Made by a program: the position numbers and the translations under genes. This document shows, one piece after another, positions 45,256 through 48,633 of a stretch of DNA of 62,127 bases. This DNA is from Porphyra umbilicalis (lineage: Eukaryota > Rhodophyta > Bangiophyceae > Bangiales > Bangiaceae), in assembly GCA_002049455.2 (NCBI GenBank), contig KV919155.1, forward strand, positions 1 to 62,127, written 5' to 3'. Under the pieces are notes generated by a model. It was given only the letters and a program-made list of their open reading frames with translations. It was not told the DNA's origin and searched no databases. Position 1 is the first letter of the stretch. Each line of letters starts with the position of its first letter.

Positions 45256-45259
45256 AAAA
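45256..45259 (-). terminator. Pol III TTTT terminator of tRNA-Met
   Basis: On the minus strand TTTT follows five bases (GAAAC) after the discriminator base of tRNA-Met. Confidence 0.7.
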
Positions 45260-45264
45260 GTTTC

Positions 45265-45363
45265 TGCCCCCGGTGGGGTGGTCGTACCACTCGAACCCAC
45301 GACCTTCAGATTACTGAGGGTGATCATATGAGACTGACGCTCTGCCAACTGAGCTACAAGGAC
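45265..45363 (-). tRNA. Elongator tRNA-Met(CAT) with two introns (37/38 and T loop)
   Basis: Minus strand: acceptor GTCCTTG, TA, D arm GCTC-AGTTGGCA-GAGC, G, anticodon stem TCAGT, CTCATA, intron TGATCACCCTCAGTA (45312-45326), A, TCTGA, AGGTC, T stem GTGGG, T loop TTCGA plus extra bases (45278-45290), T stem CCCAC, acceptor CGGGGGC, discriminator A. The T-loop region is 18 nt instead of 7, and GTGGT-ACG-ACCAC makes a perfect 5-bp hairpin, so about 11 nt are extra. Without both insertions the tRNA is 73 nt with full pairing (three G-U in the acceptor; the T-T at 31-39 is normal for tRNA-Met). Box A is TAGCTCAGTTGG. Box B (GGTTCGA...) is cut by the T-loop insertion. G1-C72 and TTCGA mark it as elongator, not initiator. 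Confidence 0.85.
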
Positions 45364-47286
45364 GGAGGGATGTGATAGAGGCGCCCGCAGCGAACACCAA
45401 GACCAGTGCACCTAGCCTACGATCGATCTCGTCGATGGCTGTGGCACTGGCCGCTCACCGACATACGGATACACATAACGCGAAGAGCTCAATGGGGTCA
45501 TCGCACGCAACTTGGCCGCCGCAACGGTATGTACCAGCGTACGACCGGCAATATTGCCAGCCCAGGCGTGGACCGCCGCCACATCGTTCTTATGAGACGG
45601 AAAAGCGTTCATGTGAGACGAGAATGCCCTCGTGTGGCCAGCAGATCCTGTTGCGGCGGCAGCAAGCAGCACTTGGACCAGCCAAACCGCCGCGCCTGGT
45701 ACGCAGACTAAATTAGAGTGCCGACGTCCGGGGTGCGCCGAGGCATTCACTGCACTCAAGGACAAACCATCCAAGCGGAGCTGGTTGCTGCCAACCACGC
45801 ACACCGCGGCCGCCACCCGTTCGGCGACCACCTCCCCCAGCACCACAGCTCGGCCATATCCACCCCGCGGCAACGCAGTGCTCCTTAAAGCGTGGGCGCA
45901 CGCAAGCAGCAAATCGGTACGTTTTGGACTCCAAGAACTTGTTGGCCCCCCTCATAGTACCCTGTGGCCCGGTTTTCAGTACAAGCGGTTTGCAACAGGT
46001 TTTGCACGGATCGCACTTGTAAAATTCATATCACAAGAAGCGTCTCGCGGCGGTGCAGAATGTGAGTGCAAGAGAACCCGTTTGCATGCTGTGGATTGGC
46101 GCTTCAGAGTGTGTCAACAACCGCACGTATCGAACGCTGCAAGGAGTTTGCACTGAGGGCGTGCCATGCTCTTCGGGTCAAGGTTCTGAAGCACTGATTG
46201 GTAGCTTACGTGCCCAGCCTCTACCCACCAACCATGAAAACACAAGAACTTGCTGCAGCACATGCTCATCATGCGCGAGATCTTGTGCCGCAACACGTCG
46301 TCTGACCAGAAAATCAAGCAAAAACGGGCTTGTGTGTGCCCGCGCTGTGAGTAGCACTGCTCTGGAATCGGCTCGAGGAGAGACCCATCTTGCGCACATC
46401 AGCTCGACATGCCTGACAAAATGCCCGGTTTTCTGCGGGAAAAAACACACCTTGTGAAGGGGGGGGGGGGGGTATGTTGGAGGTAAACTTCAACCAGGGA
46501 ACCTGGTTGGTAAAACCCACTGTGCTGCTGAACACACCGTCCAACAGGCGCCACGTGCGCTGCCTCGTCAGCAGGCGTGGATGCGGTCCTGATCTAGCCG
46601 ACAGCCAATACGTTGAAAGATTCGGCCCACCCTTTGTGCCAATCAACGTTTGCTATCCGGGGCAAAAACGCCACGTGTTTCGACAGCCGTATAGAAGCTT
46701 CGCTAAGGATAGCGCAGCTTCTTCCAAACAATTGAATATATTGCACCCTAAAACTGATAGTCAGCACAGAATTGAGTACTGAACACGTTGAAGAACACGT
46801 TTCCAATTCTGCTTCCCAGCCTCAGTACAGTACGTGCTGGGGGCGGCTGGGAGCCTTTGCGGCCGCAGCCGCGCGGCTGCCCGTGGGCCGACTGTACAGG
46901 ACACCGTGGTGGCGCGAACAGCGGACGTTCCTGGCCCGCGGTCGAGCAGGGGCGTTGCGCTCCGGGTTGGTGCCTCGTTGTCGTCTGACTGGTAGTCCAG
47001 CTGGACCGGCTCGCGTAGGTCCTCCCGAGACGGCCGGACGGGCCGCGTCGACGCGCTTCTTTTTACCCCCCTTCGGACACCCACGCCCCGCGCCTGCATC
47101 GACCTCGACTGCTGGGCAGCACCTATTTTCTTTGTGTCCGGTCGGCAGTTGACTCCCCCATGCGGTCGGTGCACTGCCTGCGCGACTTCCTCGCCCCACG
47201 GGAGCCGTGACGCGCCTGGTCCGCCAGGGCCTTTCACCCCTCCAAGCGCGGCCCCTCGCCGAGCATCACCATCTCCACCGACCATC
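45364..47286. other. Intergenic between tRNA-Met and signal peptide peptidase
   Basis: No gene recognised. A G12 run is at 46460-46471. The 300 bases before the SPP ATG are C/T-rich. Confidence 0.45.
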
Positions 47287-48633
47287 ATGGGCGCCTTTGA
47301 GGCGCTCGCGGCCGTCTCCCCCATTGGTGTGTGCATCGGCACGGCGGTGGCCACGGCGGCCTACGCTGCCCGGCGGGCGCAGTCGGTCGAAATGCTCCTC
47401 AGCCTGCTCGAGGAGGAGGGCGACGACAGCGCGGGGGGCTCTGGCGAGGGCGGCCGACCGCCGGGCGTCGGCGCCCCGCTGTCCGCGTCGGCGGCGATTG
47501 CTTTTCCGTTCGTGGCCTCGGCGGCGTTGCTCTTCATGTTTTTCTTCTACGCGGGCGTGTCGGCGCTGTTGGCGGTGGTGGTGACGCTCTCCTCCGCCAT
47601 GGCCTTGTCCTTCTTCATCTACCCAATGGTGAATACGGTTGTGGGCCGCTGTGCCGGGCGGGGCTGGGGCGGTTGGGTGCCCCCACCGGCGGCCGCCGCG
47701 GACCCATCCGAGGCGTCCCGCGCGCTGCTCAGCGGTGATGCGTCAGCGGCGGCCGTCTCGGCGACGGGCGCGACGGGTAGCGACCGGAGGCGAAGTGGTG
47801 GCAGCCGGACCCTGGATGGCAGCGGCGCGGTCGCGGCAGCGTCTGCACGGTGTTGCGCGGCCCCCCCCCCCCTTCCCGTCGTCGGCACCGGTGCCATCGT
47901 CTTGACTGCCCTTGGCTGGTGGCTCATGACTGGCCACTGGGCGCTGAACAACCTGCTCGGCGTCAGCCAGTGCGTCCTCTTTGTGTCCCTTGTCCGCGTG
48001 CACGCGGCCGTCACCTCCCTCCGCGTCTGCACCGCGCTCCTTGCCGGCCTGTTTGTGTACGACGTGTTTTGGGTGTTTGCCTCTGCCCACCTGTTTGGCA
48101 CCAACGTGATGGTCGCGGTCGCGACGCAGGACGCGAGCAACCCGGTCGCCTCCGCGGCGGCGGCGTTGCACCTGCCAGTCGCGCCCGTCGCCCGCCTGGC
48201 GCTGCCCGTGAAGCTTGTCTTCCCGACCGGCGACGGCGGGGGGCTAATGCTTGGCCTCGGCGACATTTTTGTGCCGGGCCTGCTCCTGGGGCTGGTCCTC
48301 GCCTTTGACCTGACGACGGCCATGGCGGGTGCGCCGCGCCGCCGCCGCGGCTGCTGGCCCGCCGACGGCATTTTCCCGCTCGCACTGGTCGGCTACGCCG
48401 CCGGCCTGGTCTGCAGCTTTGTCGCCAATGGGGTGTGGGGGGTGGCCCAGCCGGCGCTGTTGTACATTGTGCCCGCCACCATCGGGCCGGTGGTCGTCGC
48501 GACAGCCAGCCGGGGGGACCTCGGCGAGCTGTGGCGGGGGCCGGTCGTGTACGGGTGCTCGCCCGGTAGCAGGGGGGAATTGCCCGCCCCGGCGACAGCA
48601 GCCGGCGATGAGTCCGTCTCGGTGTGTGAGTGA
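47287..48633 (+). CDS. Signal peptide peptidase (SPP/SPPL) intramembrane aspartyl protease
   Basis: 448 residues, multi-spanning. The presenilin-type catalytic pair is present: Tyr-Asp in LFVYDVFWVF (Asp about 259) and GLGD in LMLGLGDIFVPG (Asp about 326), followed by the family's PAL motif in AQPALLYIVP (Pro about 389). An N-terminal hydrophobic anchor (AAVSPIGVCIGTAVATAAYA), paired helices (FPFVASAALLFMFFFYAGVS), a Ser/Gly-rich loop at ~140-195, and helices around the active site follow. SPP cleaves leftover signal peptides and type II membrane proteins within the ER membrane; the short N-terminus without a protease-associated domain favours SPP or SPPL3 over SPPL2. Start at ATG in ATCATGGGC; an upstream ATG at 47134 would add low-complexity sequence. 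Convergent with GALE, 212 bp between stops. Intact. Confidence 0.9.
   Translation: MGAFEALAAVSPIGVCIGTAVATAAYAARRAQSVEMLLSLLEEEGDDSAGGSGEGGRPPGVGAPLSASAAIAFPFVASAALLFMFFFYAGVSALLAVVVTLSSAMALSFFIYPMVNTVVGRCAGRGWGGWVPPPAAAADPSEASRALLSGDASAAAVSATGATGSDRRRSGGSRTLDGSGAVAAASARCCAAPPPLPVVGTGAIVLTALGWWLMTGHWALNNLLGVSQCVLFVSLVRVHAAVTSLRVCTALLAGLFVYDVFWVFASAHLFGTNVMVAVATQDASNPVASAAAALHLPVAPVARLALPVKLVFPTGDGGGLMLGLGDIFVPGLLLGLVLAFDLTTAMAGAPRRRRGCWPADGIFPLALVGYAAGLVCSFVANGVWGVAQPALLYIVPATIGPVVVATASRGDLGELWRGPVVYGCSPGSRGELPAPATAAGDESVSVCE

Follow-up and report, generated by a model that had tools for sequence, protein, structure and literature searches.

The window, a stretch of 62,127 nucleotides that makes up contig C395 of a genome of 83.8 Mb in 665 contigs, carries an elongator tRNA-Met(CAU) gene on the minus strand at 45363-45265. 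The gene is composed of three exons of 37, 22 and 14 nt, all read on that strand. Exon 1 (45327..45363) covers tRNA positions 1-37 and contains the 5' acceptor strand GTCCTTG, the D arm with the A box TAGCTCAGTTGG, and the anticodon CAT. After A37 stands a first insert of 15 nt, TGATCACCCTCAGTA, at 37/38 (intron 1, 45312..45326). Exon 2 (45290..45311, positions 38-59) holds the 3' strand of the anticodon stem, the variable loop, the 5' strand of the T stem and TTCGAG of the T loop, with the initial 8 nt of the B box, GGTTCGAG, at its end. A second insert of 11 nt, TGGTACGACCA, follows G59 at 59/60 inside the T loop (intron 2, 45279..45289). Exon 3 (45265..45278, positions 60-73) consists of C60, the 3' strand of the T stem, the 3' acceptor strand CGGGGGC and the discriminator A73. 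A T4 run on the same strand (45256..45259), a probable Pol III terminator, starts 6 nt past A73.

The first-pass annotation had described the 15-nt insertion at 37/38 and an 18-nt T loop (TTCGAG, 11 nt and C) with a perfect GTGGT-ACG-ACCAC hairpin, and both were found again on re-reading the window. It had also expected a tRNA-Met of 73 nt once the two insertions were removed. From the sequence without both inserts, ARAGORN indeed gave a tRNA-Met(cat) spanning all 73 nt. On the unspliced region the program gave no tRNA, either with its defaults or in three intron-mode runs. The Rfam tRNA model recognised both halves of the gene at 18.7 bits, against a cut-off of 29. The acceptor stem is predicted by RNAfold as a contiguous helix of 7 bp that includes three G-U pairs.

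The genome is read, from its proteins, as that of a red alga of the Bangiales, because a signal peptide peptidase of the window and a plastid ycf26 protein resemble Pyropia and Wildemania proteins. The signal peptide peptidase (47134-48633) has 64% identity to a protein of Pyropia vietnamensis, which is the best match bearing a species name and is outscored by three further proteins. The ycf26 protein is encoded on C665 of the same genome, a contig with densely packed plastid-type tRNAs, and shows 83-87% identity to Pyropia species and Wildemania. Besides, two AT-rich organelle-type tRNAs (Leu and Ser) were seen on a long contig (L043, C115:69079-69567), perhaps a mitochondrial insertion.

An alignment search of the genome gave two further copies of the tRNA-Met gene, on C3 and C196. 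The exons are identical in all three copies. The inserts at 37/38 are 15, 17 and 16 nt long and retain TGAT...TCAGTA. Each T-loop insert has 11 nt, of which 4, 4 and 7 differ in the three pairwise comparisons. The flanks are unalike outside the gene, except for CTCC before G1. The tRNA-Met structure is more than chance, since two further copies combine identical exons with unlike flanks. The CTCC (45364-45367 in the window, and at the same place in L002 and L003), together with G1, might form pairs with the 3' strand of the acceptor stem. A different acceptor register, or an extra short intron near 7/8, was prompted by this common CTCC and was set aside, the contiguous 7-bp acceptor being simpler and matching RNAfold.

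An ordinary tRNA-Met locus elsewhere had been named in the first-pass annotation as the sign of a pseudogene. On the DNA side no such locus appeared: the alignment search and two D-arm patterns, one allowing two mismatches and one with a gap, each returned the same three loci of elongator tRNA-Met in the genome, none of them free of inserts. The searches work heuristically on an assembly that may be incomplete, and an elongator tRNA-Met of quite different sequence would escape them. The Rfam search of the genome scored 63 of 1261 candidates, and the initiator tRNA-Met was absent from its list; an initiator gene without inserts lies on C180. Separate tRNAs with CAT are encoded in the plastid. 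Three identical exon sets were thus found in place of decayed exons, and no functional insert-free twin of the Met gene was reached by the heuristic searches.

The T-loop insert is not confined to tRNA-Met. Rfam, DNA and pattern searches, together with reading of the loci, gave 15 loci of eight isoacceptors with an insert in the T loop, namely Met (3), Thr-CGU (3), Cys-GCA (4), and Asn-GUU, Pro-CGG, Asp-GUC, Val-CAC and Lys-UUU (1 each). The loci are those that heuristic searches reached, with 20 of the 38 matches of one tRNA query read, and therefore no genome-wide proportion of intron-bearing genes is given. Fourteen distinct genes were analysed; L067 (Cys), whose insert equals that of L066, was omitted. 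Their T-loop introns are 11 to 26 nt long. Without the inserts, all 14 were called by ARAGORN as the expected tRNA, and unspliced only 1 of the 14 was called. Because tools expecting an intact T arm overlook such genes, as ARAGORN missed 13 of these 14, the tRNA gene complement of seaweed genomes may seem too small.

The place of the T insert could be fixed because paralogues without it are available in five isoacceptors (Thr, Asn, Pro, Asp and Val), and their 7-nt T loop is normal. The Thr-CGU paralogue on C14 and the Pro-CGG paralogues on C285 and C25 are entirely free of inserts. Those of Asn on C432, of Asp on C188 and other contigs, and of Val-CAC on C47, C236 and C349 carry a D-loop insert. 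In ThrA, ThrC, Pro and Asp the insert lies exactly and unambiguously at 59/60, and in ThrB, Asn and Val repeated bases allow one or two neighbouring placements. The boundary in Met, Cys and Lys is placed at 59/60 by analogy, as no paralogue lacking the T insert was seen for them.

Inserts were also found in the other arms. Near 20/21 in the D loop they occur in Asn, Arg-UCG, Arg-ACG, Pro-CGG, Asp, Cys, Val-CAC, Phe, Lys-CUU and Tyr, and at 37/38 in Met, Ala-AGC, Thr-UGU, Pro-AGG, Lys-UUU, Lys-CUU and Tyr. Genes free of inserts include Glu-CUC, Val-AAC, some Lys-CUU and Gly-GCC. Paralogues of one isoacceptor differ in the arm that is interrupted. The Pro-CGG genes have no insert, a D insert only or a T insert only; the Asn genes D only or T only; the Cys genes T only or D and T; the Val-CAC genes D only or D and T; and the Thr-CGU genes no insert or a T insert. 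A tRNA-Tyr(GUA) with inserts in the D loop and at 37/38 (L028, C308:8969-9010) is miscalled by ARAGORN as tRNA-Gly(gcc). A Leu, Ser, Val and Gly tRNA query gave no match in the genome, and plant-type queries of the genome gave no nuclear Leu, Ser, Gln, His or Trp tRNAs, which may be more disrupted or too distant from the queries. Such blanks mean little, because Phe and Tyr were likewise missed by a plant-type query and later recovered by pattern. Sequences of tRNA-Asp with D-loop inserts recur on single contigs (L099, L100 and L108), with further matches on C394, C36, C24 and C271, and four tRNA-Ile matches, L106 and L107 among them, lie about 8.3 kb apart on C57. These Asp and Ile loci may be tRNA-bearing repeats, since those read have GC-rich flanks and some are without a matching 5' acceptor strand.

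The T-loop introns share a pairing register. Bases 54-57 of the T loop were compared with intron bases -3 to -6 (offset 3), given a 3' bulge of intron -2, -1 and base 60. The register was first spotted by eye in some of the first twelve introns. In these twelve, 35 of 48 cells pair at offset 3 and 16 to 24 at the six other offsets; out of 20,000 shuffles, none reached 35 with the offset fixed and one did so with the best of seven offsets. Averaging the twelve by isoacceptor also left 1 of 20,000 shuffles. The Val and Lys introns were read after the register was seen and gave 4/4 and 3/4. With all 14 introns, 42 of 56 cells pair at offset 3, compared with 19 to 29 at the remaining six offsets and a shuffle mean of 24.6; not one of 50,000 shuffles reached 42, whether the offset was fixed or the best of seven was chosen. 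Full 4/4 pairing is found only in ThrA, ThrC and Val. C56 faces G at -5 in 11 of the 14 introns, and the exceptions are the three Cys introns, with 3, 1 and 2 of 4 pairs. In the Cys(GCA) loci (L066, L067 and L068 at C26:320756, 306377 and 301393, and L060 at C409:19569), where the register fits poorly, CGGG could pair with the 3' strand of the T stem. In the window copy of tRNA-Met, bases -4 to -6 of intron 2 are pairable with U55, C56 and G57, and U54 stands opposite C as a mismatch (3/4 pairs).

The same offset was seen in the anticodon arm. Six introns at 37/38 gave 17 of 24 pairs against at most 8 elsewhere, a figure that is unshuffled and comes in half from the three Met copies with their common 3' end; this count leaves out the later-read introns of Lys-UUU, Lys-CUU and Tyr at 37/38. 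In intron 1 of the window gene, loop base 32 is pairable with intron -3. The D-loop introns form loop-intron helices whose register moves with loop length. Nineteen of them gave 71 of 76 best-pair cells and a full 4-bp helix in 14 of 19 against 5.2 expected (0 of 20,000 shuffles), in a test that is weaker than the T-loop test because the register is free per gene, several boundaries are assumed and several paralogues are among the 19. An earlier test with nine D-loop introns gave 28 of 36 at the best offset (6 of 20,000 shuffles). The D-loop introns of Arg-ACG, at three loci, were left out of the scoring. Judged by their base pairing, the T-loop introns as a set are most probably bulge-helix-bulge (BHB) sites in the register of anticodon introns.

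Folding agrees with this register in part. When 11 T arms were folded unconstrained, the exon-intron helix appeared in six (Met2, Met3, ThrA, ThrC, Val and Lys). It did not appear in Met1, Asn, Asp and Cys2, and the Pro helix was shifted by one. Of eight whole precursors, four (Met2, Met3, ThrC and Val) formed the helix, and the lowest-energy folds of the three Met precursors lack the anticodon stem. For the window copy (Met1), the minimum-energy fold is the GTGGT hairpin rather than the exon-intron helix, and U54 faces C; we read the Met T-loop intron as a relaxed site. The hairpin described at first pass is perfect in this copy and absent from the inserts of the other two. What the Met copies share is the pairing of T-loop bases with the 3' part of the insert. 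The hairpin was rejected as a splice signal, being unformed in the other two copies. By eye, GGUCG of the variable loop could also pair with CGACC of the intron in the three Met copies, but this was unseen in the Thr inserts and was not adopted.

The genome encodes candidates for the splicing enzymes. A search with PF01974 gave two places, a Sen34-like domain in a 105-residue frame, closest to Sen34 chains in the PDB (E 1.7e-16), and a Sen2-like domain in a 377-residue frame, closest to Sen2 chains (E 2.5e-10). The tRNA ligase RtcB is encoded on C294 (E 2.3e-117). As to transcription, the A box of the window gene is intact. The B box had been described as split by the insertion, and it is, after eight of the eleven bases of its consensus; the split falls only past the conserved first part, GGTTCGAG, which is contiguous. 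A run of four or more T starts at most 10 nt past the 3' end in 12 of the 14 T-loop-intron genes, and at 16 and 30 nt in the other two. The background was drawn from the window and the local 3 kb rather than from the other loci; it amounts to 1.8% of places across the window, and to 1.7% on one strand and 4.0% on the other strand of the local 3 kb. The split B box raises the question of how Pol III locates such genes, with the conserved first part intact here.

Taken together, the locus is very probably a functioning nuclear gene for tRNA-Met(CAU) in a Bangiales red alga, interrupted by two introns, of which the one in the T loop is removed in the manner of the anticodon intron. A second, ectopic intron in the T loop, as first proposed, is still the best reading; the heuristic searches gave no insert-free Met locus, and T-loop inserts recur in eight isoacceptors. 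The gene structure, the paralogues, the intron place, the pairing statistic and the presence of enzyme domains are observed, and we infer transcription, cutting, joining, the order of these steps and the function of the mature tRNA. In the pre-tRNA, T-loop bases 54-57 would pair with intron -3 to -6 in a helix adjoining the T stem. One bulge would consist of 58, 59 and intron +1, and the opposite bulge of intron -2, intron -1 and base 60. Archaeal BHB sites are cut after the second base of the bulge, and the Sen endonuclease would cut each bulge in this way. A ligase, most likely RtcB, would then join 59 to 60.

The alternative that survives best accepts a real T-loop intron and assigns its cutting to a non-Sen activity, or to Sen acting in the absence of a bulge-helix-bulge, a situation reported for many introns of nucleomorphs. 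The misfit of the Cys introns and the concealed site in the Met1 fold would suit it. However, the G at -5 opposite C56 in 11 of 14 introns and the same register at 37/38 make it unlikely. Alternatively, the loci could be pseudogenes or tRNA-derived repeats, in which the insert is a mutation of dead copies and the functional tRNA-Met comes from another locus. The possible repeats among the Asp (C394, C36, C24 and C271) and Ile (C57) matches and the degenerate-looking matches L044/L079, L052, L106 and L107 point in this direction, and a divergent elongator-Met gene is compatible with heuristic searches. Against it stand the identical exons of three copies with unrelated flanks, the ARAGORN call of tRNA-Met without inserts, the T runs, the lack of an insert-free Met among the loci found, the recurrence of T-loop inserts in eight isoacceptors and the pairing statistic, and this explanation is distinctly improbable.

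It is less probable again that the insert is retained, so that the tRNA-Met in use has an 18-nt T loop bearing an additional hairpin. A stable small hairpin is possible in the window copy, but it is lost in the other two despite identical exons, and the Thr, Asn, Pro, Asp and Val paralogues without a T insert have the normal 7-nt loop. An 18-nt T loop would also disturb the contact between the T loop and the D loop. A self-splicing or spliceosomal mini-intron is hardly credible, because the size of only 11 to 26 nt alone disfavours it, no Rfam match in the window exceeded the cut-off, and the 14 T-loop introns have no common GT...AG ends.

With removal of a Sen-processed T-loop intron as the preferred reading, the question is how one enzyme could act in two arms. 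Eukaryotic tRNA splicing is usually described as restricted to 37/38, with an enzyme that measures the tRNA body. The T arm and the anticodon arm are each a 5-bp stem with a 7-nt loop, and we infer that 59/60 and 37/38 are equivalent, both between loop bases 6 and 7. The location at 59/60 would follow because the register in a 7-nt loop is the same as that of 37/38. One enzyme reading local shape could therefore serve both arms. The result suggests that one splicing enzyme recognises the same local RNA shape in different tRNA arms. A more general loop rule can be proposed, which we regard as equally likely to hold or to fail. The endonuclease of this multicellular eukaryote would no longer measure the tRNA body and would accept a stem with a small loop of which the first bases pair with the intron. 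The introns would thereby have reached the same relative position in the D, anticodon and T loops, just ahead of the final loop base, with paralogues differing in the arm. If this rule is true, intron gain and loss would be an ongoing arm-hopping that is readable within one genome. The T- and D-loop introns in many isoacceptors and the paralogues lacking them are natural substrate pairs with which to ask whether the algal enzyme reads local shape.

Compared with ordinary eukaryotic introns, intron 1 of the window gene is one of the 37/38 kind, whereas intron 2 lies in another arm and splits the B box. The statement of the first-pass annotation that ectopic tRNA introns are known in archaea and in algae such as Cyanidioschyzon is borne out by the available parts of two papers (PMC9602550, PMC4090602). 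As far as the first of these is available, nuclear tRNA genes of Cyanidioschyzon merolae have introns of the D arm, anticodon and T arm in BHB motifs, with more than one intron per gene (PMC9602550). The present genome is like it in being a red algal nuclear genome with ectopic and multiple tRNA introns (PMC9602550). When one gene is compared, the introns of C. merolae tRNA-Ile(UAU) are given at 12/13, 37/38 and 53/54 (PMC9602550), and the inserts here are at about 20/21, 37/38 and 59/60; the T intron of that gene is thus at another place. Unlike what the accessible text describes for C. merolae, paralogues of the same isoacceptor in this seaweed have the intron in different arms or none. A T-arm intron of Cyanidioschyzon is described as blocking the modification of U55 by Pus4 in vitro (PMC9602550), and the step order is therefore testable.

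In the nucleomorph of Guillardia theta, a reduced red algal nucleus, only elongator tRNA-Met and tRNA-Cys(GCA) are described as each having three introns, and the removal of T-arm introns has been demonstrated, according to the portion available (PMC4090602). In the present genome, T-loop introns occur in both of these isoacceptors. The T-arm introns named there are of 3 nt (PMC4090602), whereas those described here are of 11 to 26 nt with a pairing register. For archaea, the same review lists non-canonical BHB introns at 59/60 and 20/21 and states that the central helix includes the first two anticodon bases (PMC4090602, in its available part); ectopic or multiple tRNA introns of nucleomorphs and archaea are also treated in what is accessible of PMC3978253 and PMC4033280. 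The introns described here are like archaeal BHB introns, as far as these sources describe them, in their places, predicted three-base bulges and 4-bp helix, and multiple introns per gene. They are unlike them in belonging to a eukaryote with Sen2-like and Sen34-like subunits, in being short and in having several relaxed sites (3/4 pairs). Titles and abstracts, which cover subscription papers thinly and are weak evidence of absence, gave no such introns in Porphyra, Pyropia, Bangiales or other red algae beyond C. merolae and the nucleomorphs. Ectopic tRNA introns are already known from Cyanidioschyzon, nucleomorphs and archaea, and what is new here is the seaweed host, their extent and the proposed shared loop rule.
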